DNA of 64,000 nt, taken from positions 186,001 to 250,000 of the forward strand of contig NZ_JACYXE010000003.1 of assembly GCF_014857905.1 (NCBI RefSeq), in the 5' to 3' direction. Made by a program: the position numbers and the translations under genes. Shown here piece after piece: positions 6,652-63,721 of this stretch. The stretch is from Agilicoccus flavus. GTDB lineage: Bacteria > Actinomycetota > Actinomycetes > Actinomycetales > Dermatophilaceae. Numbering within the stretch: position 1 is the first letter of the stretch; every line of letters starts with the position of its first letter. The notes under the pieces were generated by a model. The model had not been told where the DNA came from. It was given only the letters and a program-made list of their open reading frames with translations, and did not search any database.

Positions 6652-8091
6652 ATGACCGCACACAGTTCAGGATCGGCGGCCGCCCCGTCCGAGTCCTCCC
6701 AGCACCCCGGGGAGGAGGAGGGACACGGCCTCGTCCGCCGGATCGGCCCGGGCCTGCTCCTCCTCTTCATCGTCGGCGACATCCTCGGCACCGGCGTCTA
6801 CGCGCTCACCGGCAAGGTCGCCAAGGAGGTCGGCGGCGCGGTGTGGCTGCCCTTCCTGTGCGCCTTCGTCGTGGCCATGCTCACCGCGTTCAGCTACCTC
6901 GAGCTCGTGACGAAGTACCCGAAGGCGGGCGGCGCCGCCGTCTACACGCACCGCGCGTTCGGGGTGCACTTCATCACGTTCCTCGTCGCGTTCACCGTCA
7001 TGTGCTCCGGCCTGACGAGCGCCTCCAGCGCGTCCAAGGCGTTCGCCGGCAACCTCGGCGAGGTCATGGGCTGGAAGTCCGGGGCCGTCCTGCTCCTCAT
7101 CGCGTTGCTCTTCATGACGGCCATCGCGCTCGTCAACTTCCGCGGCGTCGCCGAGAGCGTCAAGCTCAACGTCGTGCTCACCCTCATCGAGCTCACCGGT
7201 CTGGCCATCATCATCGTGATCGGCTTCTACGCGATCGGTCTCGGCAAGGGCGACACGTCCAAGCTCATGGAGATCAGCATCCCCGAGGGCGAGACGGCGT
7301 TCACGGCGGTCACCGCCGCCACGGCGCTCGCGTTCTTCGCCATGGTCGGGTTCGAGGACTCCGTCAACATGGCCGAGGAGACCAAGGACCCGGTACGGAT
7401 CTTCCCGAAGATCATGCTCATCGGCCTGACGATCACCGGCGTCATCTACGTCCTCGTCTGCATCTCCTCGGTGGCGCTCGTGCCGCCCGCCGAGCTCGGC
7501 GAGGGGGACGCCCCGCTGCTCAAGGTCGTCGCCGCGGGCGCCCCGAGCTTCCCGGTGTCGATCTTCGCCTTCATCACGATGTTCGCCGTCGCCAACTCGG
7601 CCCTCATCAACATGCTCATGGCGTCGCGGCTGCTCTACGGCATGGCGCACGAGGAGGTCCTGCCCAAGGTTCTGGGTCGCGTGCACCGCACGCGCCGCAC
7701 GCCGTGGGTCGCGATCATCTTCACGACCGTGCTCGCCTTCGGGCTCATCTGGTTCGCCGACCTCACCGCCCTCGGTGGCACGACGTCGTTCCTGTTGCTC
7801 GTCGTCTTCACGATCGTCAACATCGCCGTGCTCGTCCTGCGCAAGGACCGGGTCGACCACAAGCACTTCCGCGCGCCCACGGCCGTCCCCGTCATCGGGG
7901 CCGTCGTCTGCGCCTACCTCGCCAGCCCGCTCTCGGGTCGCGCGGTGCGCGACTACCAGGTCGGTGGCGTGCTCCTCATCGTCGGCATGGTCCTGTGGGC
8001 CCTCACGTGGTTCATCAACCGGGCGATCTACTCCAAGCCCACGTACGCCAAGCACCCCGAGTCCCTCGGCGGGCACGTGGACGAGGACTGA
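6652..8091 (+). CDS. APC-family amino acid permease
   Basis: Twelve-helix amino acid/polyamine/organocation transporter of 479 residues. Helix 1 has the unwound substrate-binding signature GDILGTGVYALTGKV, and helix 6 has FFAMVGFEDSVNMAEETKDP, both typical of the cationic and neutral amino-acid APC branch. The first 30 residues are a hydrophilic, cytoplasmic Ser/Glu-rich tail. The start is the ATG at 6652; only a weak GGGT lies upstream. The gene stands alone, divergent from the ferredoxin-like gene and followed by a strong terminator. The substrate cannot be deduced from context. Confidence 0.85.
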   Translation: MTAHSSGSAAAPSESSQHPGEEEGHGLVRRIGPGLLLLFIVGDILGTGVYALTGKVAKEVGGAVWLPFLCAFVVAMLTAFSYLELVTKYPKAGGAAVYTHRAFGVHFITFLVAFTVMCSGLTSASSASKAFAGNLGEVMGWKSGAVLLLIALLFMTAIALVNFRGVAESVKLNVVLTLIELTGLAIIIVIGFYAIGLGKGDTSKLMEISIPEGETAFTAVTAATALAFFAMVGFEDSVNMAEETKDPVRIFPKIMLIGLTITGVIYVLVCISSVALVPPAELGEGDAPLLKVVAAGAPSFPVSIFAFITMFAVANSALINMLMASRLLYGMAHEEVLPKVLGRVHRTRRTPWVAIIFTTVLAFGLIWFADLTALGGTTSFLLLVVFTIVNIAVLVLRKDRVDHKHFRAPTAVPVIGAVVCAYLASPLSGRAVRDYQVGGVLLIVGMVLWALTWFINRAIYSKPTYAKHPESLGGHVDED

Positions 8092-8119
8092 GCCCGAGTC
8101 CGAACGCCCCGCCCCGGAC

Positions 8120-8150
8120 GGGGCCGCGCCCCACGAAGGGGCGCGGCCCC
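8120..8150 (+). terminator. Strong hairpin after the APC permease
   Basis: A perfect 13-bp stem, GGGGCCGCGCCCC paired with its complement across an ACGAA loop, begins 28 bases after the permease stop. It separates the permease from the cupin and glycerol genes. No U-tract follows. Confidence 0.7.
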
Positions 8151-8234
8151 GTTCGCCGTTCGCCGTACCGGGGACGGGCTCTCCCGCTAGCGTCGAGGCA
8201 TGCGAGCGGACGTTCGAGGCGGACGGAGATGGCG

Positions 8235-8648
8235 ATGAGCAACGAGAGCGACCACCCCGACGAGGTCGGACCCGCCGGGCCCGGTGCAGCGGGCCGGCGG
8301 CGCCCGGGCACGGACGTGGGCACGGCCACCCCCACCGGTGGCCTGTCCGGCCGGGCGGCCTCGCGCGGCGGGCGGCCCGGCGCCGCGACCGTGCTCGACG
8401 TCGACACCGCGAAGGTGGTCGTGTTCGAGTTCGACACCGGCGACGCGCTCGCCGAGCACGCCGCCCACCACCCGATCCTCGTGCAGGTGATCCGCGGGCG
8501 CGTGGGCTTCGACCTGCCGGATCGCTCGATCGAGCTGGCGCCGGGGGAGGTCCTGCACCTGACCCCGCTGCTCCGGCACGGCGTGCGGGCCCTGGAGCCC
8601 ACCACGCTCACGGTGACGATGCTGCGGGGCTCGGCCGAGCGCGGCTAG
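8235..8648 (+). CDS. Small cupin-domain protein
   Basis: A 137-residue protein with one cupin barrel (about residues 60-130). The segment HHPILVQVIRGRVGFDLPDRS followed by LAPGEVLHLTPLLRHGVRAL matches the two cupin motifs, and the His residues are potential metal ligands. The first 50 residues are Gly/Ala/Arg-rich and probably disordered. ATGs occur at 8229 and 8235; I prefer the second because GGAG lies six bases before it. It precedes glpD by 87 bases but shows no evident link with glycerol use. The ligand is unknown. Confidence 0.75.
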   Translation: MSNESDHPDEVGPAGPGAAGRRRPGTDVGTATPTGGLSGRAASRGGRPGAATVLDVDTAKVVVFEFDTGDALAEHAAHHPILVQVIRGRVGFDLPDRSIELAPGEVLHLTPLLRHGVRALEPTTLTVTMLRGSAERG

Positions 8649-8668
8649 GTCCCCGACCCGGCCCCGTG

Positions 8669-8676
8669 TTGCGCAA
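8669..8676. promoter_or_regulatory. Small palindrome upstream of glpD
   Basis: The 8-bp palindrome TTGCGCAA sits 60 bases before the glpD start in the only intergenic space in front of the glycerol genes. It could be half of an operator for a glycerol regulator (IclR/GylR or DeoR type), but no regulator gene lies nearby and so short a palindrome may be chance. Confidence 0.25.
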
Positions 8677-8735
8677 TTCGGAGCGGGCAGAAAGGGTGGA
8701 GGACCGCACGCCGACGCAGCGCCGAGGAGATCGTG

Positions 8736-10526
8736 ATGACGACGGACCGACTGACCGTGCAGAGCCGAGACGCGGATCTGCGCCGCATGGCGCAGGAGGG
8801 CGTCGACGTCCTCGTCGTCGGCGGGGGCGTGACCGGGGCGGGGATCGCGCTGGACGCGGCCGGGCGCGGACTCTCCGTCGGGCTGCTCGAGGCGCAGGAC
8901 TGGGGGGCCGGCACCTCCAGCCGGTCGAGCAAGCTCGTCCACGGGGGGCTGCGCTACCTGCAGATGCTCGACTTCAAGCTCGTCGCCGAGGCCCTCACGG
9001 AGCGCGGCCTGCTCATCGACCGCCTCGCGCCGCACCTCGTGCGGGCGGTGCCGTTCCTCTACCCGCTCGAGAAGCAGTGGGAACGCCCGTACGTCGCTGC
9101 CGGCGTGGGCCTGTACGACCTCCTCGCCACCGTCGGCACCGACAACCGCGCGGTGCCCACCCACCGTCACCTCGGGGCCAAGGGCATGAAGGAGGCGTTT
9201 CCGGGCATCCGCTCCGACGCGGCGATCGGCGCGATCAAGTACTACGACGGCCAGGTCGACGACGCCCGGCTCGTCCTCGGCCTCGTGCGCACGGCGCGCC
9301 AGTACGGTGCCGCCGTGGCCAACCGCGCCGAGGTCGTCGAGCTGACGACGAACCCCCAGGGCCGGGTCGACGGGGCCCGGGCCCGCGACGCGGAGTCGGG
9401 GGAGGAGTTCCACGTGGCCGCCGGCACCGTCGTCAGCGCGGCCGGCGTGTGGACCGAGCGCACCCAGGACCTCGCGCAGGCCTCGACCGGGCTCCACGTC
9501 CTCGCCTCGAAGGGCATCCACATCGTCGTGCCGCGCGACGCGATCGACGGGCAGAGCGGGATCATCCTGCAGACCTCGTCGTCGGTCCTCTTCATCATCC
9601 CGTGGTCGCGCTACTGGGTCATCGGCACGACCGACACGGCCTACCACGAGGACCTCGTGCACCCGGTGGCCACCGCGAAGGACATCGACTACGTCCTCGA
9701 GCAGGCCAACCGGATCCTCGCGCGCCCGCTGACCCGCGGCGACGTCGTCGGCACGTGGGCGGGGCTGCGGCCCCTCCTGCAGCCGAAGGCGAAGGGCGAC
9801 GGCGGCTCCTCCAAGGTGTCGCGGGAGCACACCGTCATGGAGTCGGCCCCCGGGCTCGTCTCGATCGCCGGCGGCAAGCTGACGACCTACCGGGTCATGG
9901 CCAAGGACGCGATCGACTTCGTCCTCGGCAAGGAGGTCGCCGCGCAGCGCCCGTCGCTGTCGCACACGACGCCGCTCGTGGGCGCCGTCGGCTTCCCGGC
10001 GTACGCCACCCGGGCCGACCAGGTCGGCGCCGCGTACGGGTGGGACCGCTTCCGAATGGCCCACCTGCTGCACCGGTACGGGTCGTCGCTGCCGGAGCTG
10101 CTCGCCCTCGTCGACGAGCGCCCCGACCTCGCGCGCCCGCTGGAGGGGGCCGACGCCTACATCCGCGCCGAGATCGTCTACGGGATGACGCACGAGGGGG
10201 CGGCCCACCTCGAGGACCTCATGGTGACGCGCACGCGCCTGACCTACGAGGTCCGCGGCCACGGGCTCAGCGCCATCGACGAGATCGCCGATCTCGCCGC
10301 CGAGACGCTCGGATGGGACGACGCCCGGCGCGCCGCCGAGGTCGAGGCCTACCGCGCCCGGTGCGCCGCCGAGGACGAGGCGTCGCAGCTCACCGACGAC
10401 GAGGACGCCGCGGCCGTCCGGGGCCGCCGCGGCGACGTCGCGCAGGTCCTCGCGACGAACGCCGAGGCGCCGGACGAGTCCGCCACCGAGACCGACCCGA
10501 GCACCCCGGGGGAGGCGGTGCGCTAG
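8736..10526 (+). CDS. glpD: Glycerol-3-phosphate dehydrogenase (FAD)
   Basis: Membrane-associated flavoenzyme that oxidises sn-glycerol 3-phosphate to dihydroxyacetone phosphate and passes electrons to quinone. The 596-residue protein has the FAD-binding dinucleotide fold at the N-terminus (VVGGGVTGAGIALDAAGRG, glycines 29-31, 34 and 36), the conserved GTSSRSSKLVHGGLRYL substrate/FAD stretch, GTTDTAYH, and the GGKLTTYR motif before the C-terminal helical domain. The last 40 residues are acidic and variable. GTG (8733) and ATG (8736) are adjacent; GAGGAG six bases before the ATG favours the latter. First gene of a glpD-glpF-glpK set. Confidence 0.95.
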   Translation: MTTDRLTVQSRDADLRRMAQEGVDVLVVGGGVTGAGIALDAAGRGLSVGLLEAQDWGAGTSSRSSKLVHGGLRYLQMLDFKLVAEALTERGLLIDRLAPHLVRAVPFLYPLEKQWERPYVAAGVGLYDLLATVGTDNRAVPTHRHLGAKGMKEAFPGIRSDAAIGAIKYYDGQVDDARLVLGLVRTARQYGAAVANRAEVVELTTNPQGRVDGARARDAESGEEFHVAAGTVVSAAGVWTERTQDLAQASTGLHVLASKGIHIVVPRDAIDGQSGIILQTSSSVLFIIPWSRYWVIGTTDTAYHEDLVHPVATAKDIDYVLEQANRILARPLTRGDVVGTWAGLRPLLQPKAKGDGGSSKVSREHTVMESAPGLVSIAGGKLTTYRVMAKDAIDFVLGKEVAAQRPSLSHTTPLVGAVGFPAYATRADQVGAAYGWDRFRMAHLLHRYGSSLPELLALVDERPDLARPLEGADAYIRAEIVYGMTHEGAAHLEDLMVTRTRLTYEVRGHGLSAIDEIADLAAETLGWDDARRAAEVEAYRARCAAEDEASQLTDDEDAAAVRGRRGDVAQVLATNAEAPDESATETDPSTPGEAVR

Positions 10527-10584
10527 CCGACCCGACGCCCGGCCGTTCGGGCCGTCCTCCGTCCGACCCCAGAAAGGTCCCACC

Positions 10585-11346
10585 GTGAACGCACTCGCCA
10601 CCGCCGCCGAGGCGCCGCTGTCCCTGACCCAGGTCTTCGCCTCCGAGGTGCTCGGCACCGCGTTCCTCACCCTCTTCGGGGTCGGGGTCGTCGCCGGCGT
10701 CCTGCTGCCGAAGTCGAAGTCGTTCGACTCCGGGTGGATCGTCATCACCTTCGGCTGGGGACTCGCCGTCTTCGTCGGCGTGTGCGCCGCCTGGCGCTCC
10801 GGGGCCCACCTCAACCCGGCGGTGACGCTGGGCCTGCTCGCCTCGGGAGCGGAGGAGTACTCGAAGGGGGGCGTCCCGGTCACGCTCGGCAGCACGCTCG
10901 TCTACCTGTCCGCGGAGATGCTCGGGGCGTTCCTCGGAGCCGTCGTCGCCTGGGCGGCGTTCCGCAAGCACTACGACGAGGAGTGCGACCCCGCGCTCAA
11001 GCTCGCGACGTTCAGCACCGGCCCCGAGATCCGCTCGTACGGCTGGAACGTCGTCACCGAGATCATCGGGACGTTCTCGCTCGTCTACATCATCCTCACG
11101 TTCGCGCACACCCCCGCCGAACTCGGCCCGCTCCCCGTGACGTTCCTCGTCCTCGCCATCGGCATCAGCCTCGGCGGGCCGACCGGGTACGCCATCAACC
11201 CCGCCCGCGACCTCGGCCCCCGCATCGCCCACGCCGTGCTCCCGTTCCGGGGCAAGGGCGGCAACGACTGGGGCTACGCGTGGGTCCCGATCGTCGGGCC
11301 CATCGTCGGCGGCGTCCTCGCCGGCCTCCTCTCCCGCATCTTCTGA
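10585..11346 (+). CDS. glpF: Glycerol uptake facilitator (aquaglyceroporin)
   Basis: Channel of the major intrinsic protein family that lets glycerol cross the membrane, 253 residues with six membrane spans and two half-helices. Both NPA boxes are intact: HLNPAVT (N77-A79) and INPARDLGPR (N205-A207). The Arg-Asp after the second NPA box is the glycerol-facilitator signature; water channels have other residues there. The start is GTG, with AGAAAGG upstream. It lies 58 bases after glpD and 63 before glpK, so the three genes very likely form one operon. Confidence 0.95.
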   Translation: MNALATAAEAPLSLTQVFASEVLGTAFLTLFGVGVVAGVLLPKSKSFDSGWIVITFGWGLAVFVGVCAAWRSGAHLNPAVTLGLLASGAEEYSKGGVPVTLGSTLVYLSAEMLGAFLGAVVAWAAFRKHYDEECDPALKLATFSTGPEIRSYGWNVVTEIIGTFSLVYIILTFAHTPAELGPLPVTFLVLAIGISLGGPTGYAINPARDLGPRIAHAVLPFRGKGGNDWGYAWVPIVGPIVGGVLAGLLSRIF

Positions 11347-11409
11347 CCGGGCCGCACCCGCGCCGGTACCTCGCACCACGCCCCACCACAACGACGTGAA
11401 AGGCCGCTC

Positions 11410-12945
11410 ATGAGCACCTCCGACACCCAGTACGTCCTCGCCATCGACCAGGGCACGACGAGTTCGCGGGCCATCGTCTTCGACCACGACGGGTCGATCG
11501 TCTCGACGGGGCAGCTCGAGCACGAGCAGATCTTCCCGCGCGCCGGGTGGGTCGAGCACGACCCCCTCGAGATCTGGAAGAACACGCGAGAGGTCGTGGC
11601 CCGCGCGCTCGCGGACGCCGAGATCGACCGCGACCGGATCGAGGCCGTGGGCATCACCAACCAGCGCGAGACGGCCGTCGTCTGGGACAAGAACACCGGA
11701 AAGCCCGTCTACAACGCGATCGTCTGGCAGGACACGCGCACCGGCAAGATCTGCGACCGGCTCGCCGGCGACGACGGCCCCGACAAGTACAAGGACCGGG
11801 TCGGGCTGCCGCTGGCCACCTACTTCGCGGGCCCGAAGGTCGCGTGGATCCTCGAGAACGTCGACGGCGCGAAGGAGAAGGCCGAGTCCGGCGACCTCCT
11901 CTTCGGGACGACGGACAGCTGGGTCGTGTGGAACATGACCGGCGGCCCCAACGGCGGGGTCCACGTCACCGACGTGACGAACGCGTCGAGGACCATGCTC
12001 ATGAACCTCGACACCCTCGACTGGAACGAGGACATCTGCGCCGACATGGGGATCCCCGTCTCGATGCTCCCCGAGATCCGGTCGAGCAGCGAGGTGTACG
12101 GCGAGGGCCGCGAGAAGGGGCCCCTGGCCGGCGTCCCGATCGCCGGGATCCTCGGCGACCAGCAGGCGGCGACGTTCGGGCAGGCCTGCTTCGAGGTCGG
12201 CATGGGCAAGAACACGTACGGGACCGGCAGCTTCCTGCTCATCAACACCGGCACCGAGATCGTCCGCTCCGAGCACGGGCTCCTCACGACCGTGGCCTAC
12301 CGGATCGGCGACGCCGACCCCGTCTACGCCCTCGAGGGGTCTATCGCCGTCACGGGTTCGCTCGTGCAGTGGGTCCGCGACAATCTCGGCCTCATCAAGG
12401 ACGCCGCCGAGATCGAGACCCAGGCCAAGAAGGTGGAGGACAACGGCGGCGCCTACTTCGTCCCGGCGTTCTCGGGCCTGTTCGCGCCGCACTGGCGCTC
12501 CGACGCGCGCGGCGCTCTCGTCGGCCTCACGCGCTACGTCAACAAGAACCACCTCGCCCGGGCCGTGCTCGAGTCGACGGCCTTCCAGACCAAGGACGTC
12601 GTCGACGCGATGAACGCCGACGTCGACGGCAAGCGGGCCGAGCTGAGCGAGCTCAAGGTCGACGGCGGCATGACCGCCAACGAGACGCTCATGCAGTTCC
12701 AGGCCGACCTGCTCGGGGTGCCCGTCATCCGCCCGAAGGTCGTCGAGACGACAGCGCTCGGCGCGGCGTACGCCGCCGGTATCGCCGTCGGGTTCTGGAA
12801 GGGTGAGGAGGACGTGACGAAGAACTGGTCCGAGGACAAGCGGTGGGAGCCGCAGATGGACCCCGCGGAGCGCGACCGCCTCGTCCGCAACTGGCAGAAG
12901 GCCGTGACGAAGACCTTCGACTGGGTCGACGACGACGTCTCCTGA
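11410..12945 (+). CDS. glpK: Glycerol kinase
   Basis: FGGY-family kinase that phosphorylates glycerol to sn-glycerol 3-phosphate, the substrate of GlpD. The 511-residue protein has the usual length, with the N-terminal ATPase fold motif [16 protein letters not shown], the substrate region [29 protein letters not shown], and the C-terminal FGGY block [25 protein letters not shown] precedes the ATG. Last gene of the glycerol operon, followed by a GC-rich hairpin. No residue looks abnormal. Confidence 0.96.
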
Positions 12946-12995: not shown

Positions 12996-14189
12996 ATGTC
13001 CGATTCCACCCCCGCCTCGCTGCCCTGGATCGAGCGGCTCGTCGCCTTCGACACGACGAGCCGCAACTCCAATCTCGAGCTCATCGACGCCGTCGCCGAC
13101 GAACTGCGCGGCCACGGCCTCGAGCCGCACGTCTTCCCCGACGACGAGGGCCGCAAGGCCAACCTCGTCGTGACGGTCCCCGCGGCCGACGGCTCCCGCT
13201 CCGGGGGCGTCATGCTCTCGGGGCACACCGACGTCGTCCCCGTCGACGACCAGGAGTGGAGCAGCGACCCGTTCCGGGCGCAGATCCGCGACGGCCGGCT
13301 CTACGGCCGGGGCACGTGCGACATGAAGGCGTTCAGCGCCGTGGCGATCAGCCTGCTGCCGCGGATGGTGTCGGCGCGGCTGCGTGAGCCCATCCACCTC
13401 GCGCTCTCCTACGACGAGGAGGTCGGCTGCGTGGGCGGGGCCCGGATCGTGAAACAGATCGCCGACCTCGGCCTCGCTCCCTCGGCGTGCATCGTCGGTG
13501 AGCCGACCAACATGGCCGTCGTGCGGGCCCACAAGTCCATCAACCTCGTGCGCGTGACGTTCACCGGCGTCGCGGCCCACTCCTCGCTCACGCCGCAGGG
13601 CGTCAACGCCGTCGAGCACGCGGCCCGGTTCGTCACCCGCGTGCGCGACATGGCCGACGCGTGGCGCGAGCACGGACCGTTCGACGACGCGTACCCCGTT
13701 CCCTACACGACCTCGAGCGTCAACGTCGTGTCCGGCGGCATCGCGACGAACACGGTGCCCGACCGCTGCGTCGTCGAGCTCGAGTACCGCTCGATCGCGG
13801 CCGTCGACCCCGCCGAGGTCCTCGACCGGATCCGCGGGTTCGCCCAGCAGGCGCAGGAGGCCATGCGGCGCGAGAACCCGGCGGCCCACGTGGACGTCGA
13901 GGTACCCGCCCAGGTGCCCGGCCTCGACGCCGACCCCGACAGCCCCGCGGCCGCGCTGGCGGTCGGGCTCGGCGCGCTCGACGACGGCGGCAAGGTCACC
14001 TACGGCACCGAGGCCGGGCAGTTCGCGGGCTCCGGCATCGAGACCGTGGTGTGCGGACCGGGCGACATCGCCCAGGCCCACGCCCCCGACGAGTACCTCG
14101 AGCTCGAGCAGGTGCAGGCGTGCGAGCGGTTCGTCGCCGCGCTCGTCGAGCACCTCTCGCTCCCGGCCGAGGGCGAGGTGCGCGCGTGA
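12996..14189 (+). CDS. M20-family deacylase, acetylornithine deacetylase (ArgE)-like
   Basis: Zinc-dependent amidohydrolase of the M20 family, 397 residues. Metal and catalytic residues are in place: SGHTDVVPVD (H77, D79), GRGTCDMKAF (D109), and YDEEVGCVGG with base E141 and ligand E142. A dimerisation lid domain lies at about residues 180-295. Overall it resembles ArgE, which removes the acetyl group from N-acetylornithine. However, no arginine genes are nearby, and it overlaps a metabolite transporter, so a catabolic role on an imported N-acyl amino acid is equally possible. No clear ribosome site precedes the ATG, so the message may be leaderless. Confidence 0.82.
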   Translation: MSDSTPASLPWIERLVAFDTTSRNSNLELIDAVADELRGHGLEPHVFPDDEGRKANLVVTVPAADGSRSGGVMLSGHTDVVPVDDQEWSSDPFRAQIRDGRLYGRGTCDMKAFSAVAISLLPRMVSARLREPIHLALSYDEEVGCVGGARIVKQIADLGLAPSACIVGEPTNMAVVRAHKSINLVRVTFTGVAAHSSLTPQGVNAVEHAARFVTRVRDMADAWREHGPFDDAYPVPYTTSSVNVVSGGIATNTVPDRCVVELEYRSIAAVDPAEVLDRIRGFAQQAQEAMRRENPAAHVDVEVPAQVPGLDADPDSPAAALAVGLGALDDGGKVTYGTEAGQFAGSGIETVVCGPGDIAQAHAPDEYLELEQVQACERFVAALVEHLSLPAEGEVRA

Positions 14190-15472
14190 GCTCCCCCGCG
14201 GCCGCGACGCCGTCGACCGGGACAGACGCCGCGGGGCGGGCGCGGGCCCGGCGGGCCGTCGTCGCCGCCTCGATGGGCAACGCCCTCGAATGGTTCGACA
14301 TCATCGTCTACGCCTTCATGGCGCCCGTCATCCAGAAGCTGTTCTTCCCCGCGTTGGGCGACACGCTCGGGCTCGTCGTCACGTTCGGCCTCTTCGGCGT
14401 CTCCTACCTCATCCGCCCGCTGGGGGCGATCGTCCTCGGCAGCTACGGCGACCGGCGCGGCCGCAAGGCCGCCCTGACGCTGACCATCGCGCTCATGACG
14501 TTCGGCGTCGCGCTCATGGCCTTTGCCCCCACGTACGCGACGATCGGCATCGCGGCGCCGCTGCTCATCGTCGTCTCCCGCCTCGTCCAGGGGTTCTCGG
14601 CGGGCGGCGAGTTCGGCTCGGCGACCGCGTTCATGACCGAGAACTCACCCGATCGCAAGGCCTTCTACGCGTCGTGGCAGGTGGCCACGCAGGGCGCGTC
14701 GATGTTCCTCGCCGCGACGGCGGGCTTCCTGCTCAACACGGTCGTCTCGCCGGAGACGCTGCTCGCGTGGGCGTGGCGGCTGCCGTTCGTCTTCGGGCTG
14801 CTCATCGGCCCCATCGGCCTGTGGATCCGGTTGCACATGGACGACACCCCGGAGTTTCTCGCGGCGGAGACCGTGGATTCCCCCCTGGGCACGACCTTCG
14901 TGCGGCACATGCCGCGGGTGCTCGTCGCGGCGATGTGCGTCGGCGTGGCGACGATGAGCGTGTACCTCATCACGTACCTGCCGACGTTCGCGCAGCGCAA
15001 CCTCGGGCTGCCGCCGTGGAGCGGGTACGCCGGGGCGATCGTGGCCGGGCTCATCGCCCTCGTCGGCTCCCCGTTCGTGGGGCGGCTGGCCGACCGGGTC
15101 GGCCAGACCCGGATCATGCTCACGGCCGCGCTCGTCGGCCTCGTCGTCGCGTTCCCGATGTTCGCGCTGCTCACGGGCACGCCCCGGGTGAGCACGCTCA
15201 TCGTCGCCGAGATCATCCTCGGCGCGCTCATGGCCGCGTACTTCGCGCCGCTGCCGTCGCTGCTCGCGGCGATGTTCCCCGTGCAGATCCGGACGACGGG
15301 GATGTCGTTGGCCTACAACATCGGCGTGACGCTGCTCGGCGGGTTCGCGCCGACGGTGCTCGCGTGGCTCGTCACGTACGACCTGCGGGCCCCGAGCTTC
15401 TACTACATCGGCGTCGCCGTCCTCTCCATCGTCGGCCTCGTGCTCGCGCGGCGCGTCTACGGTCAGCGCTGA
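14186..15472 (+). CDS. MFS transporter, metabolite:proton symporter type
   Basis: Twelve-helix major facilitator transporter of 428 residues. The opening ASMGNALEWFDIIVYAFMAP and the loop GSYGDRRGRKAALTLTIALM are characteristic of the metabolite:H+ symporter branch (alpha-ketoglutarate, citrate, shikimate and proline/betaine permeases). SRLVQGFSAGGEFGSA follows in helix 4. Its GTG start overlaps the stop of the M20 deacylase by 4 bases, so the two are translated together and probably share a substrate. The ligand cannot be read from the sequence. Confidence 0.87.
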   Translation: MSSPAAATPSTGTDAAGRARARRAVVAASMGNALEWFDIIVYAFMAPVIQKLFFPALGDTLGLVVTFGLFGVSYLIRPLGAIVLGSYGDRRGRKAALTLTIALMTFGVALMAFAPTYATIGIAAPLLIVVSRLVQGFSAGGEFGSATAFMTENSPDRKAFYASWQVATQGASMFLAATAGFLLNTVVSPETLLAWAWRLPFVFGLLIGPIGLWIRLHMDDTPEFLAAETVDSPLGTTFVRHMPRVLVAAMCVGVATMSVYLITYLPTFAQRNLGLPPWSGYAGAIVAGLIALVGSPFVGRLADRVGQTRIMLTAALVGLVVAFPMFALLTGTPRVSTLIVAEIILGALMAAYFAPLPSLLAAMFPVQIRTTGMSLAYNIGVTLLGGFAPTVLAWLVTYDLRAPSFYYIGVAVLSIVGLVLARRVYGQR

Positions 15473-58531: not shown

Positions 58532-59626
58532 TCAGAACGTGAAGACGGCCGTCAGCACGTGGCGTTCACGCGCGGCGACGGCGCGCATGAGGTCGGGAGC
58601 CTCCTCGAACGGCACGACGTCGGTGACGAGGTGTTCGCGGACGGCCGCGCCCTCCGCCTCGAGCAGGTCGAGGGTCTCCAGCGACAGCCGGCGCCGGTCC
58701 CAGGCGTGGGCGAGCCCGCGGGGGACCCGCCCGATCTGCGCGGACACCATCCGCAGGCCGTTGTGGTGGAACTCCTCGCCGAGGCGCAGGTCGTCGGCGC
58801 CGCCGGTGTAGAAGGCGAGGTCGACGACGCTGCCCTGCGGGCGCAGGCAGCGCAGGGCCTCGTGCAGCGCGGCAGACCGGCCGCGGCACTGGAAGACGAC
58901 GTCGGCGCCGTGGTCGCCGGGGCCGTGCCGCCACCGTGTCTTCAGCACGGCTCCGGGATCCTCGCCCAGGTCGAGCGCGGCGAAGCCGAGTCGGCGCGCG
59001 ACGGACAGCCGCCGGTCGTCGGCGTCGACGACGACCACCTCGGCCGCGCCGTGTCGCCGCGCGAGCAGTGCCACGAGCAGGCCGATCGGGCCGGCGCCGG
59101 TGACGACGACGAGCCGGCCGGCGACCCCGCGGCCCAGGTCGTCGGCGCTGCCGCCGGCCGCGTCCCACGCCGCGTGGAGCAGGCCGTTGGCGCAGATCGG
59201 GCCGAGGTGCGCGACGTACACCCCGAGCAGCGGGTCGAGTCCGTCGGGGAGGGGGACGACGTGCTCGCGCACGGGGTCGCTGACGTGGTGGGTCGCGTGA
59301 CCGAACGGGGTGGCCACGAGGTCGCCGACGGCGAAGGCGGGGGTCGCCGACTCGAGCACGCGCGCGACCTCCATGTAGCCGAGCCGGGTCACGGGGTAGG
59401 CGAAGTCCGGCTCGGCGCCGGGGTCGGGTACGAAGAGACCGAGCTCGGGGTCGAGGCGGGCGTGCAGAGCCGGATTGTCGCCCTTGAGGAACGTCAGCTC
59501 CGTCCCGGCGGACAGCCCCGAGGCGACCGCCTCGAGGAGCAGGCCGCCGTCGGGGACCGCGGGCAGGTCCCCCTCGACGATGCGCAGCTGCCCGGGCGCG
59601 GCGACCGTGAGGTTGCGGCGCCTCAC
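58532..59626 (-). CDS. MDR-family (zinc-binding type) dehydrogenase
   Basis: Medium-chain dehydrogenase/reductase of 364 residues. The nucleotide domain is VVVTGAGPIGLLVALLARRHGAAEVVVVDADDRRLSVA (Rossmann, acidic D for NAD). The N-terminal domain has no classical catalytic-zinc GHE motif, so it may act without zinc. It is the last gene of the gpgS operon, and its start overlaps the stop of the Gfo/Idh/MocA gene. Such MDR-Gfo/Idh pairs, sometimes fused, occur in sugar-modification clusters. Substrate unknown. Confidence 0.82.
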   Translation of the reverse strand: MRRRNLTVAAPGQLRIVEGDLPAVPDGGLLLEAVASGLSAGTELTFLKGDNPALHARLDPELGLFVPDPGAEPDFAYPVTRLGYMEVARVLESATPAFAVGDLVATPFGHATHHVSDPVREHVVPLPDGLDPLLGVYVAHLGPICANGLLHAAWDAAGGSADDLGRGVAGRLVVVTGAGPIGLLVALLARRHGAAEVVVVDADDRRLSVARRLGFAALDLGEDPGAVLKTRWRHGPGDHGADVVFQCRGRSAALHEALRCLRPQGSVVDLAFYTGGADDLRLGEEFHHNGLRMVSAQIGRVPRGLAHAWDRRRLSLETLDLLEAEGAAVREHLVTDVVPFEEAPDLMRAVAARERHVLTAVFTF

Positions 59627-60630
59627 GCGCTCGTCCCCGACCGCCGGGGCACGACGGGCTTGTCGGCCGCCGCGCTATCGGCCAGCGCCATCGCCAGCCG
59701 GTGGCTGCTCGCCGCATCGGCCCACGGGGCGATCGCGGCGGGGATCTCGCCGCGGACGGCGGCGACGAAGTTCTCGTCGACCGCCACCCGCGGGTCGGCC
59801 CCCCGCTCGTGCCGCTCGGGCTCGCCGGTACCGCGGTCGAGGACGAGGCCCTCCTCGCCGATGCTCACGTGGGCGCCGGCGGCGACGACGTCGAGCCCGG
59901 CCCCGAACTTCCGGGACAGCGCGCAGGAGGCCCCGATCGTGAGGACGGTGCCGGAGGCGAACCGGACGACGCCGCCCGTCGCGTCGTCGACGTCCGTCCC
60001 GGTCACGCCCTCGGGCAACGTCCCGGGTCGACGGTCCTCGTCCGCGAGACGCGCGCCGAACGCGTGTACCTCGACGGCCTCGCCGAACAGCGACCGCGCG
60101 AGGTCGAGGACGTGGGCGAGCTGCTCGACGACCTGCCCGCCCGACCGGTCACGCCGCTGCCACCACGTGACCGGCGGCCTCTTGTCGAGCCAGTAGCCGT
60201 GCGCGAGCAGGGGGCGGCTCGTCGCGAACAGCTCGCGCGCCACCGCGAGGTGGTCCAGGCACCGCCAGTGGTACCCCGTCCCGGTGACGACGCCGGCCTC
60301 CTCGACGAGCGACTCCAGGCGGTCGAGGGTGTCGAGGTCGAGGCCCACGGGCTTCTCGACGAACAGGGGCAGCCGCCGCGCGAGGACGGCCTCCTCGGGG
60401 GCGCCGTGCGCGAACGGGGGGACGCACACGTAGGCGGCGTCCACGGGCCCGTCGTCGAGGGCCGCCTCGACGTCGTCGAACGCGCGGGCACCGACCGTGT
60501 CGGCCAGGGCGGTGGCCGCCGGCAGCGACACGTCGGCGACCGCCGCGATCGACACGTCGGGCAGGTCCGACAGGACGCGGGCGTGGCGCTGGGCCACGCC
60601 GCCGGCGCCGATGAGGGCGATCCTCGTCAC
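59623..60630 (-). CDS. Gfo/Idh/MocA-family oxidoreductase
   Basis: NAD(P)-dependent sugar dehydrogenase family member, 335 residues. ALIGAGGVAQRHARVL is the Rossmann start, and VEKPVGLDLDTLDRLESL holds the family EKP motif whose Lys takes part in catalysis; GGQVVEQLAHVLDLAR supplies the downstream His. The GTG overlaps the glycosyltransferase stop by four bases, and its own stop overlaps the MDR gene. Together with the MDR enzyme it could oxidise and reduce one sugar position, but the substrate is unknown. Confidence 0.87.
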   Translation of the reverse strand: MTRIALIGAGGVAQRHARVLSDLPDVSIAAVADVSLPAATALADTVGARAFDDVEAALDDGPVDAAYVCVPPFAHGAPEEAVLARRLPLFVEKPVGLDLDTLDRLESLVEEAGVVTGTGYHWRCLDHLAVARELFATSRPLLAHGYWLDKRPPVTWWQRRDRSGGQVVEQLAHVLDLARSLFGEAVEVHAFGARLADEDRRPGTLPEGVTGTDVDDATGGVVRFASGTVLTIGASCALSRKFGAGLDVVAAGAHVSIGEEGLVLDRGTGEPERHERGADPRVAVDENFVAAVRGEIPAAIAPWADAASSHRLAMALADSAAADKPVVPRRSGTSA

Positions 60631-61775
60631 GGGTTCCTCCTAAGCAGCTCGTAGTACAGGGACAGGTAGTCCGCCGCCATCCTCTCCGGCTTCCAGGGCC
60701 GGGCCGAATCGCGGCACGCCGCCGGGGAGATCTCACCGACCCGGTGCAGCGCCTCGGCGATCCCGGCCTCGTCCTCGCGCAGGAAGCCCGTCACGCCGTC
60801 GGTGACGAGGGAGGGCAGGACCCCGAGGGGGGTGGCGACGACGGGGATCCCGCGCACCAGGGCCTCGACGACGCCGGTCGCGCCCGGCTCGGCCCACCGG
60901 TTGGTCGCGAGGAGGGCCACGGCGCCCCGCAGGAGGCGTTCCTTCTCCAGGCCCGCCACCCCGCCGGCCCAGCGCACGGCGCGCCCGTCGAGGAGCGGCT
61001 CCACACGCTCGCGGAAGTACTGGACGTCGGGGTGGCCCAGCAAGGCCTCGTCGCCGGCCGCGATGCGCGCGCCGAGCTCCTCGGGGTCGCCCACCCCCGC
61101 CACCGGCCCCGCGAGCACGAGCGGGACCCCGGCGGCGACGCAGGCGCGCGCCGCGATGTCCTGGCCCTTGTCGGCGGTGATGCGGGCGAGGAGCAGCGCG
61201 TGGGCCCCCTGCTCGATCGTCGACTCGACCTCCGGCCCGAGGACGGGCGGAGCGGGCACCGCGAGCGGGACGACACCGAGCGTCTGGGCACGGATGGCCT
61301 CGGGGGCACGGTCGAGCTGGGACTGCGACACCGCCGCGAACGCGACCCGCCCGCGCCCGTCGAAGCGCGAGTAGAAGTCGGCGTGCTTGCGCATGTCCCA
61401 GTGCAGGGTCTGCAGCGTCGGCGGGGCGTCGGTCCCCATCGCCGCGAGCGTGGCCACGCCGACGACCTCGAGATGGTCGTGGACGACGTCGTAGCGCCCG
61501 GACCGCAGGGCGGCGGCGACGCCGTGCATGTGGGCGTGGGCGATGCCGGAAACCTGGTTGTACGGGCGCGCGATGTCGGCGAAGCGTGGCGCGTCGACGA
61601 CCCGGATGACGTCGTCGACCTCGAGACCCGGCTCGCCGACGGTGGCCAGCGTCACGTGGGCCCCGGCGCGGCGCAGCTCCGGCACGAGGGTCGCGACGAC
61701 GGTCTCGATCCCGCCGTACCCGATCGGCGGGACGGGCAGCCACGGCCCGGCGTCGACGAGGACCCGCAGCGTCAT
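60627..61775 (-). CDS. GT4-family glycosyltransferase
   Basis: Retaining glycosyltransferase of the GT-B fold, 382 residues. The N-terminus VDAGPWLPVPPIGYGGIETVVATLVPELRRAG is a standard GT4 opening; TLHWDMRKH lies at the domain boundary, and AEPGATGVVEALVRGIPVVAT has the E-x7-E motif that binds the nucleotide sugar. ATG 61775 overlaps the gpgS stop (ATGA). It probably extends or decorates the product of GpgS, but donor and acceptor are unknown. Confidence 0.87.
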   Translation of the reverse strand: MTLRVLVDAGPWLPVPPIGYGGIETVVATLVPELRRAGAHVTLATVGEPGLEVDDVIRVVDAPRFADIARPYNQVSGIAHAHMHGVAAALRSGRYDVVHDHLEVVGVATLAAMGTDAPPTLQTLHWDMRKHADFYSRFDGRGRVAFAAVSQSQLDRAPEAIRAQTLGVVPLAVPAPPVLGPEVESTIEQGAHALLLARITADKGQDIAARACVAAGVPLVLAGPVAGVGDPEELGARIAAGDEALLGHPDVQYFRERVEPLLDGRAVRWAGGVAGLEKERLLRGAVALLATNRWAEPGATGVVEALVRGIPVVATPLGVLPSLVTDGVTGFLREDEAGIAEALHRVGEISPAACRDSARPWKPERMAADYLSLYYELLRRNP

Positions 61776-62764
61776 CGCGACCTCGACATCGGCTCCGGGC
61801 GCGGGCGCGGGCGCTCGAGGTAGGCGGGGACGTCGAGCATCCGGGGCCGCTCGCCGAAGCCGACGTCGCTGGTGCGGGCGACGTAGCCCGCGGTCCCGCG
61901 GACGAACTGGGTCATCTCGTGCGACGGCTGTTCGGTCGCGACGATCCGCCCCTGCCGCGCGAGGCGTTCGTGCGCCGTGAGCTGGATCTGCATCGCCATG
62001 CGGGCCAGCTGGTCGTCGGGGGAGTTGCGGTGCTCTCGCACGCCGAGGTCGACCTGGGCCAGCGCGTCGAGGCCGTACCGGTCGAGGAGGTCGACGAGCA
62101 GCCCGATCTCGACGCCGTAGCCCGAGACGAACGGGACCGACTCGAGGCACTCGCGGGTCGCGGCGTACTCGCCGGCCAGGGGCTGGACGAACCCGGCGAG
62201 GCAGGGCCAGTGGGCGTTGAGCAGCGGCCGGGCGACGAGTTCGGTGACCCGGCCGCCCCCGGCGGGCAGCACCGTCGCCCCGTTCGTCAGGGGCCGGTCG
62301 TAGCACCCCTTGGAGAAGTGCACGCCGTGGGCCAGCACGGGGCCGAGCAGCCCGACGACGAAGACCGGATCGAAGTTGCGCAGGTCGGCGTCGACGAAGA
62401 CGAGGACGTCGCCGCTCGTCGCGGCCAGGGACTTCCACAGGGCCTCGCCCTTGCCGGGCACGTCGCCGAGCTGCGGCAGGACGTCGCCCTGGGCCACGAC
62501 GCGGGCCCCGGCGGCCCGGGCCACCTCGACGGTGGCGTCGGTGGAGTTCGAGTCGACGACGAGGATCTCGTCGACGAGGCCGATCTCGTCGCGCAGCGTG
62601 CCGGCGATCGCCGCGACGATCGCGCCGACCGTGTCCTGTTCGTTGCGCGCCGGCAACACGACGCTCACGGCGCGGCCCGCCTTGGCCGCCGCGAGGGAGA
62701 CGGCGTCGAATTGCTGTGCGTCGTAAGAGCGCTGGCTGAGCCACGCGCTGACGTCGGGATGCAT
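61772..62764 (-). CDS. gpgS: Glucosyl-3-phosphoglycerate synthase
   Basis: GT81-family retaining enzyme that transfers glucose from a nucleotide sugar to 3-phosphoglycerate, the first step to glucosylglycerate and, in mycobacteria, to methylglucose lipopolysaccharide. The 330-residue protein has SVVLPARNEQDTVGAIV, VFVDADLRNFDPVFVVGLLG (the DxD-like metal site), GEYAATRE, FVSGYGVEIGLLVDLL and VREHRN, all diagnostic of GpgS. GGAGG precedes the ATG. First gene of a four-gene, overlapping operon and divergent from a GpgP-like phosphatase. Confidence 0.92.
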   Translation of the reverse strand: MHPDVSAWLSQRSYDAQQFDAVSLAAAKAGRAVSVVLPARNEQDTVGAIVAAIAGTLRDEIGLVDEILVVDSNSTDATVEVARAAGARVVAQGDVLPQLGDVPGKGEALWKSLAATSGDVLVFVDADLRNFDPVFVVGLLGPVLAHGVHFSKGCYDRPLTNGATVLPAGGGRVTELVARPLLNAHWPCLAGFVQPLAGEYAATRECLESVPFVSGYGVEIGLLVDLLDRYGLDALAQVDLGVREHRNSPDDQLARMAMQIQLTAHERLARQGRIVATEQPSHEMTQFVRGTAGYVARTSDVGFGERPRMLDVPAYLERPRPRPEPMSRSR

Positions 62765-62927
62765 GGTGCGACCTCCGTCTCACGGATCAGGCGGATCGGC
62801 CTGGCCGGGGTCGTGATGACCGCCGGGGGCGTCAACGTAACAATGTCTTCGGCACCACGCGCGTCGAACCCCCGCACCCGGACGCCGACCGGGTCCCGCC
62901 GGGCCCACCACCCCGAACAGGAGCGAG

Positions 62928-63590
62928 ATGACCCCCACGAGCCCGCGCCGCGTCGTCCTGTGGCGGCACGGCCGCACGGCCTGGAACGTCGAGAACCGGG
63001 CTCAGGGCCAGCGTGACGTCCCCATGGACGAGGTGGGGGTCGCCCAGGCCGCCGACGCCGCGCCGCACCTGGCCGCCCTCGACCCCGCCCTCGTCTGGTC
63101 CTCGGACCTGACGCGGGCCCGGGACACCGCCGACGCGCTGGCCCGGCTCACCGGGCTGCCGGTCGTCACCGATCCCCGCCTGCGGGAGTACGACGTGGGC
63201 CTGCGCGCCGGGTACACGTTCGAGGAGTTCCGGGCGGCCCACCCGGAGGTGCACCGCCGCTTCTTCGGCGACCCCCACTTCCACGTGCCGGGCGCCGAGG
63301 AGGTCGGGCAGGTCGCGCGGCGGGTGGGCGACGTGATCCGGGACGCGACCCAGGCGCTGCCGCCGGGGCGGGTCGGCGTCCTCGTCGGCCACGGCGCGGC
63401 GCTAACCAGCGGCCTCCTGGGCTTCTTCGACGCCCCGCCGCACCTGCGGGACATGTTCGCGGGCATGGGCAACTGCGCGTGGACCGTGCTCGCCGAGCAC
63501 GAGGCGCGCGGGTGGCAGATCGTCGACTACAACGCCGGCTCCACCGCGCACGCCCTCCGACCCACCGACAACGCCGACGCGCCGTTGTGA
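62928..63590 (+). CDS. gpgP: Histidine phosphatase, probable glucosyl-3-phosphoglycerate phosphatase
   Basis: Phosphoglycerate-mutase-fold phosphatase of 220 residues. The nucleophile is H14 in WRHGRTAWN; VGHGAALTSG has the second histidine. NRAQGQRDVPMDEVGVAQA and GMGNCAWTVL resemble mycobacterial GpgP, which removes phosphate from glucosyl-3-phosphoglycerate. Position supports this: it is divergent from gpgS with 163 bases between. AGGAG precedes the ATG. Other histidine phosphatases (for example of alpha-ribazole phosphate) cannot be excluded by sequence alone. Confidence 0.75.
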   Translation: MTPTSPRRVVLWRHGRTAWNVENRAQGQRDVPMDEVGVAQAADAAPHLAALDPALVWSSDLTRARDTADALARLTGLPVVTDPRLREYDVGLRAGYTFEEFRAAHPEVHRRFFGDPHFHVPGAEEVGQVARRVGDVIRDATQALPPGRVGVLVGHGAALTSGLLGFFDAPPHLRDMFAGMGNCAWTVLAEHEARGWQIVDYNAGSTAHALRPTDNADAPL

Positions 63591-63600
63591 TCCGCTGCCC

Positions 63601-63654
63601 CTGAACCCCCTGAACCCCCTGAACCCCCTGAACCCCCTGAACCCCCTGGACCCC
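63601..63654. repeat. Six tandem 9-bp repeats
   Basis: Six units of CTGAACCCC in direct succession; the last has one change (CTGGACCCC). They begin ten bases after the phosphatase stop and end before the terminator. Non-coding. Confidence 0.9.
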
Positions 63655-63664
63655 CCGAAACGGC

Positions 63665-63694
63665 GAGGCGCCACCCCGTGCGGGGTGGCGCCTC
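63665..63694. terminator. Perfect bidirectional hairpin before murA
   Basis: A perfect 13-bp stem (GAGGCGCCACCCC / GGGGTGGCGCCTC) with a GTGC loop, between the convergent phosphatase and murA stops. Among the strongest stem-loops in the window. Confidence 0.75.
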
Positions 63695-63721
63695 GTGGTG
63701 TGCGCGCGGTGGGGCGCGCCG

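Follow-up and report, generated by a model that had tools for sequence, protein, structure and literature searches.

A co-inherited gpgS operon with a second glycosyltransferase and two oxidoreductases: a candidate pathway to a modified glucosylglycerate in actinobacteria

What would a bacterium make with an operon that begins with a glucosyl-3-phosphoglycerate synthase gene and continues with a second glycosyltransferase and two oxidoreductases? The question is raised by four minus-strand genes of Agilicoccus flavus, located in the window, a stretch of 64,000 nucleotides (contig NZ_JACYXE010000003.1, positions 186,001 to 250,000). The genes encode glucosyl-3-phosphoglycerate synthase (GpgS), a family 4 glycosyltransferase (GT4), a Gfo/Idh/MocA-family oxidoreductase (henceforth Gfo) and a medium-chain dehydrogenase/reductase (MDR). 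An earlier note on this DNA had described them as an operon with 4-base overlaps at all three junctions and had assigned the four families. Both the open reading frames and the sequence bear this out. The stop and start codons of gpgS and the GT4 gene share TCAT (61772–61775; ATGA on the minus strand), and those of the GT4/Gfo (60627–60630) and Gfo/MDR (59623–59626) pairs share TCAC (minus-strand GTGA). An AGGAGG lies ahead of the Gfo start. The family assignments were recovered with NF010496 for GpgS, PF13439/PF00534 for the GT4, PF01408 and PF22725 for the Gfo, and PF00107 for the MDR.

A co-inherited unit of four genes

These four genes form a genuine co-inherited unit, not a chance neighbourhood. 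We searched 197 genomes sampled from the class with each of the four proteins. The MDR was present in 10 genomes and the Gfo in the same 10 (hypergeometric P ~5e-17); the GT4 was present in nine of these and nowhere else in the sample (P ~1e-14). Gfo, MDR and GT4 genes lie side by side in every sampled genome that has them. GpgS was detected in 106 of the genomes, including all 10 with the operon (P 0.002), and adjoins the other genes in eight. Of 297 genomes in the window's own order, only two encode the MDR. The set therefore occurs sporadically, and where it is lacking it is lacking as a whole and not scattered. The separation of the genes in close relatives, which the earlier note had set against its own proposal, was thus not seen: the unit is co-inherited, and relatives mostly lack the whole set.

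We scanned 84,980 species genomes and found 438 places encoding relatives of the MDR; the figures that follow refer to the best 80 loci by MDR similarity. Gene calling recovered the MDR in 80 loci, the GT4 in 75, GpgS in 72 and the Gfo in 71, several loci without the full set being cut by contig ends. The loci span at least seven orders (Micromonosporales, Micrococcales, Streptosporangiales, Geodermatophilales, Propionibacteriales, Pseudonocardiales and Mycobacteriales), outside which we found a single Solirubrobacter bin and a single Methylococcaceae bin. Two arrangements recur. All four genes run in one direction in the window, Enemella, Kocuria, Arthrobacter, Nocardioidaceae and Antribacter; GT4-gpgS diverges from Gfo-MDR in most Micromonosporaceae, Streptosporangiaceae and Geodermatophilaceae. 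The window protein clusters with those of Enemella and Marmoricola. Comparing the pairwise-distance matrices of all four proteins over 77 loci gave correlations of 0.90–0.94, values that partly reflect shared organism phylogeny and were obtained on loci gathered by MDR similarity. The profile across the 197 genomes is free of this selection problem.

Individual loci merit separate mention. A contig binned as Methylococcaceae (L061, ~7997–12213) carries a Gfo-MDR pair between other glycosyltransferase-like genes and has no gpgS; its MDR is ~56% identical to that of the window, and the pair, which here sits in a different glycan setting, may have been transferred or binned wrongly. A contig recorded as 'Rhodococcus rhodnii NRRL B-16535' (L071) is nearly identical to Kibdelosporangium aridum (L079) across the region, and the record may be mislabelled. 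A mycobacterial-type SecA2 (TIGR04221, 1126 bits in L050) lies beside Gfo-MDR in 22 loci and recurs across genera. It is downstream of the MDR gene in L028, L030, L031, L047, L050 and other Micromonosporaceae loci, and it is also found in L106 and L108. We considered SecA2 as a pathway partner and set it aside, as this is probably local synteny.

Predicted reactions of the encoded enzymes

The first reaction is the best supported by homology. The window GpgS scored 419.6 bits against the curated profile NF010496 (cut-off 262), its top matches in the Protein Data Bank (PDB) are solved GpgS structures (E 4e-84), and a genome search found no second copy. Residues K105, D125/D127, T174, Y216, E219, H245 and M256 are invariant over 77 loci. 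With consistent offsets they correspond to Lys114, Asp134, Asp136, Thr187, Tyr229, Glu232, His258 and Met269 of MtGpgS, which have been named as functional residues (PMC2581804). The DXD metal site, the Asp-Lys-Glu ion-pair network and the equivalents of the acceptor residues Thr187 and His258 are all present. As judged from the alignment, all published donor and acceptor residues are kept in the window enzyme, and because the MtGpgS residues match the invariant ones here, synthesis of glucosyl-3-phosphoglycerate is the expected reaction. We also asked whether operon-borne GpgS form a single clade and rejected this: copies inside and outside the operon cluster strongly (5 label changes vs 36.7 when shuffled), yet the operon copies do not make up one clade. 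Some actinomycetes have two GpgS genes within a few kb (L105, at 9812–10732 and 13698–14624; L049; L137; L138), and in the two genomes of L137 and L138 the pair is convergent and the GT4 gene does not adjoin it.

The earlier note omitted a histidine phosphatase gene that diverges from gpgS 163 bp away and belongs to the picture (Table 1). Its product has GpgP (4PZ9) as its best PDB match (E 1e-22) and reached no equivalog cut-off; the gene adjoins gpgS in 13 related loci. A second histidine phosphatase paralogue in the same genome (C22:460397) lies beside nadD-like (nicotinate-nucleotide adenylyltransferase-like) and rsfS-like genes, both named from their sequences, a neighbourhood that we take to be that of mycobacterial gpgP. 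A search of the 163-bp divergent region for a sigma-70 consensus found none, and promoter and terminator scans found nothing. The gap between gpgS and the phosphatase gene is also short in related loci, and its sequence is not visibly conserved. Downstream of the phosphatase gene, at 63600–63700 of the window, there is a run of ~5 CCCCCTGAA units and, after it, a long GC-rich hairpin (GAGGCGCCACCCCG...CGGGGTGGCGCCTC).

Table 1 Features of the operon and its divergent neighbour in the window
Feature	Position	Strand	Basis
gpgS, heading the operon; encodes glucosyl-3-phosphoglycerate synthase	61772–62764	minus	NF010496 profile, solved GpgS matches, conserved residues
GT4 glycosyltransferase, proposed to extend glucosylglycerate	60627–61775	minus	Pfam PF13439/PF00534; nearest solved 7FG9/8X3Q
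Gfo/Idh/MocA-family NAD(P)-dependent sugar oxidoreductase	59623–60630	minus	PF01408 78 bits, PF22725 51 bits
MDR-superfamily oxidoreductase without catalytic zinc ligands, partner of the Gfo	58532–59626	minus	PF00107 55.6 bits
Histidine phosphatase divergent from gpgS, candidate dedicated glucosyl-3-phosphoglycerate phosphatase	62928–63590	plus	PF00300 159 bits
Divergent intergenic region, presumed start signals of operon and phosphatase gene	62765–62927 (163 bp)		sequence

The closest solved relative of the GT4 is TeGSS (Tll1591), both by sequence (7FG9/8X3Q, E 2e-27) and by structure: for the AlphaFold model (predicted local distance difference test, pLDDT, 94) the top Foldseek matches are 7FGA/7FG9, with a template-modelling (TM) score to target of 0.87. 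TeGSS transfers glucose from UDP-glucose onto sucrose, is described as an alpha-1,2-glucosyltransferase and is encoded beside sucrose-phosphate synthase (PMC9909042). All 77 GT4 homologues share its residues Trp10, Tyr18, Arg179 and Lys184, and W12, Y20, R198, K203, W294, E296 and E304 of the window protein are present in 77 out of 77. The donor and the retaining chemistry are therefore likely the same as those of TeGSS. The acceptor rim differs. None of the six TeGSS residues Tyr70, Glu74, Tyr97, Arg117, Thr119 and Asn122 is kept (the window has S76, H80, V107, D127, R129 and H131), and the family has instead the near-invariant H125-W126-D127-L128-x-K/R130-H131 and R143. The acceptor is likely a different one, plausibly anionic, as the near-invariant residues are cationic and fit the need of an acidic acceptor. 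A glucosylsucrose synthase in the strict sense was rejected on the same rim residues.

Both Gfo domains score above their Pfam cut-offs. The Lys93 of the EKP motif and His173 are invariant, and an invariant Glu169 stands where Asp is usual. Among solved proteins, 3EZY and inositol dehydrogenases are closest; DgpA and sugar 3-ketoreductases match more weakly. Assignment as an inositol 2-dehydrogenase (IolG, TIGR04380) was rejected at 88.7 bits against a cut-off of 355. The model of the MDR protein (pLDDT 92) confirms the MDR fold. In its sequence SAGTEL replaces CGSDL, with Ala40 aligned to the zinc Cys of 4CPD, and GYM replaces GHE, with Y84 and M85 invariant. We rejected a zinc-dependent medium-chain dehydrogenase, as the catalytic zinc ligands Cys and His are missing; with Ala at the zinc Cys and GYM at GHE, a zinc-independent MDR reaction is expected. 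The earlier note had mentioned that Gfo and MDR enzymes are sometimes fused, and in three loci (L012, L014 and L069) the two occupy one open frame with no stop between them.

The proposed product and its alternatives

We tentatively propose, with doubt slightly outweighing belief, that the operon makes a modified, probably two-sugar, glucosylglycerate. GpgS would join UDP-glucose and 3-phosphoglycerate to give glucosyl-3-phosphoglycerate. The divergent GpgP-like phosphatase, or the housekeeping paralogue, could plausibly dephosphorylate this to glucosylglycerate. The GT4 would then add an alpha-linked glucose to yield glucosyl-glucosylglycerate or its phosphate; the donor and retaining chemistry are supported by homology, and the acceptor and the timing of dephosphorylation are our assumptions. 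By analogy with TeGSS, the linkage might be to the 2-OH of the existing glucose. Finally, the Gfo and the zinc-less MDR may work as a pair on one sugar: one enzyme would oxidise it to a keto-sugar, its partner would reduce or process that, and the end product would carry an oxidised or epimerised sugar. Some lineages might also import and split the same compound with a linked ATP-binding cassette (ABC) importer, a hydrolase of glycoside hydrolase family 63 (GH63), a TIM-barrel isomerase and a second MDR.

These linked genes give an independent indication of the product. Two architectures, together comprising 12 loci, include a GH63 hydrolase, a TIM-barrel isomerase/epimerase relative, a second MDR (MDR2), a sugar ABC importer and a ROK-family regulator. 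The GH63 proteins are related to the solved Thermus mannosylglycerate hydrolase MgH (E 8e-75) and the mycobacterial glucosylglycerate hydrolase GgH (E 4e-60). We checked 19 active-site positions of MhGgH (PMC6608630), and 18 of them, including glycerate-binding and catalytic ones, are kept in 12 out of 12 sequences. At position 434, which contacts the sugar, they have Phe, like the Thermus MgH TTHA0978; the 5OHC chain has Gln. The GH63 of L060 scored 308 bits against the GgH family NF047898 (cut-off 550). The linked hydrolases point to a glycosylglycerate as the product. In one of these loci, L038 (Amycolatopsis coloradensis), a 626-aa protein resembling amylo-alpha-1,6-glucosidase (a weak alpha-glucosidase match) is encoded at 7041–8921, between GH63 and Gfo.

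Besides the shared phylogeny and the MDR-based choice of loci given above, several observations weigh against the proposal of a modified glucosylglycerate. A search of the window genome for a GH63 hydrolase found none, and the catabolic link is therefore drawn from other lineages alone. Because the acceptor-rim residues of TeGSS are all replaced in the GT4, its alpha-1,2 regiochemistry and its acceptor are guesses. GT4-Gfo-MDR or Gfo-MDR occurs without an adjoining gpgS in L058, L087, L107 and L109. In L038, L071 and L079, Gfo-MDR is co-directional with GH63 and MDR2, which would also suit a catabolic role.

This last point leads to the strongest rival, in which GpgS and the GT4 make a glycoside of the glucosylglycerate type and the Gfo and MDR start to break it down or recycle it by way of keto-sugars, a chemistry of the kind seen in IolG-IolM inositol oxidation or DgpA-type 3-oxidation. 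In the three loci just named, MDR2-TIM-GH63-Gfo-MDR runs in one direction. The top family matches of the Gfo, the MDR and the TIM-barrel protein TIM1 include IolG, IolM and IolO, all far below cut-off, and the Gfo profile also matches DgpA and glucuronide-3-dehydrogenase. However, in the window and in the Micrococcaceae and Nocardioidaceae loci, Gfo-MDR is co-directional with gpgS-GT4, and neither a hydrolase nor an importer or isomerase is encoded nearby. The window genome lacks such a GH63 hydrolase, and an operon for futile making and breaking is improbable. We consider this role unlikely.

No more probable, in our estimate, is that GpgS yields plain glucosylglycerate and that GT4-Gfo-MDR, as a pathway of its own sharing only regulation with it, modifies sugars on a different acceptor (inositol, pterin, a sugar alcohol or other). 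The fold relatives of the GT4, which include BH4 glucosyltransferases, AviGT4 and MshA, would allow this, as would the resemblance of the Gfo to IolG, the occurrence of the trio without an adjoining gpgS in a few loci (L058, L087 and L107) and the other glycosyltransferase-like genes that flank Gfo-MDR in L061. Against a separate pathway, gpgS adjoins the GT4 gene in most loci of both arrangements, GpgS is present in 10 out of 10 operon genomes of the class sample, and GH63 glycosylglycerate hydrolases are linked in 12 loci.

It is less probable again that the product primes or heads a larger polysaccharide inside the cell, in the way that glucosylglycerate forms one end of methylglucose lipopolysaccharide (MGLP) in mycobacteria. 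Mycobacterial GpgS is a key early MGLP enzyme (PMC2581804, PMC2674218) and TeGSS can add several glucoses (PMC9909042), but no methyltransferase, acyltransferase or polymer gene was seen to recur beside the four genes in related loci. A chance neighbourhood of four unrelated genes, for which only the generality of the enzyme families speaks, is refuted by the association across at least seven orders, the matching presence pattern and the matching trees.

The interpretation in the earlier note is thus partly supported: a glucosylglycerate-based glycoside agrees with the GH63 neighbours and with the kinship to TeGSS, which adds alpha-1,2-linked glucose to a compatible solute, whereas a glycolipid head group found no support here. 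Glucosylglycerate accumulates in nitrogen-starved mycobacteria and is a salt-stress solute in other bacteria, and several of the host groups are known as desiccation-hardy soil and rock dwellers. With more doubt than for the pathway itself, we suggest that the operon may represent an undescribed, widespread class of actinobacterial compatible solutes, a glucosyl-glucosylglycerate with a sugar oxidised or epimerised by the Gfo and zinc-less MDR, for which some lineages would have dedicated genes of uptake and hydrolysis. If so, a whole glycosylglycerate family would have been overlooked, served by a dedicated module for extension and redox steps in Micromonosporaceae, Streptosporangiaceae, Geodermatophilaceae, Micrococcaceae, Nocardioidaceae and others. 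The operon offers four enzymes with testable substrates, including a group of MDR proteins whose catalytic zinc site has been lost.

Comparison with known systems

We found no description of the four-gene set in the open literature, which is weak evidence of novelty as subscription journals were mostly outside coverage. Reports on glucosamine-kinase clusters (PMC6520443) and on the Actinoplanes sigma-H regulon (PMC11205660) were considered, and neither describes it.

The GpgS/GpgP pathway of mycobacteria and others resembles the operon in its first enzyme, which has all published active-site residues, and in the adjoining GpgP-like phosphatase. It differs in that here a GT4 and two oxidoreductases follow in one operon, and in that the phosphatase is an extra paralogue, a second one being linked to the nadD-like and rsfS-like genes. 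In the mannosylglucosylglycerate (MGG) pathway of Rhodopirellula, Petrotoga and others, a second glycosyltransferase extends the GpgS product to a sugar-glucosylglycerate, as is proposed here; to our knowledge that pathway has no Gfo/MDR pair. MGG occurs as a solute (PMC3694870).

TeGSS shares with the GT4 its fold, its catalytic and UDP-binding residues, a gene beside a compatible-solute synthase and the same logic of solute extension. However, identity in the structural alignment is ~26%, near-invariant cationic residues take the place of the acceptor rim, and the partner synthase is GpgS and not sucrose-phosphate synthase. The GH63 neighbours in the 12 related loci retain the residues with which MgH/GgH carry out catalysis and contact glycerate, but they fall short of the GgH cut-off, have Phe at 434 and are absent from the window genome. 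The IolG-IolM-IolO system likewise brings together a Gfo and an MDR, in some loci with a relative of the TIM-barrel epimerase, but all the proteins here score far below those family cut-offs, glycosyltransferases are associated with them, and the MDR is without catalytic zinc ligands. Each enzyme is of a known family; no report of their combination, of how widely it is conserved or of its association with glycosylglycerate hydrolases turned up in the open literature covered.

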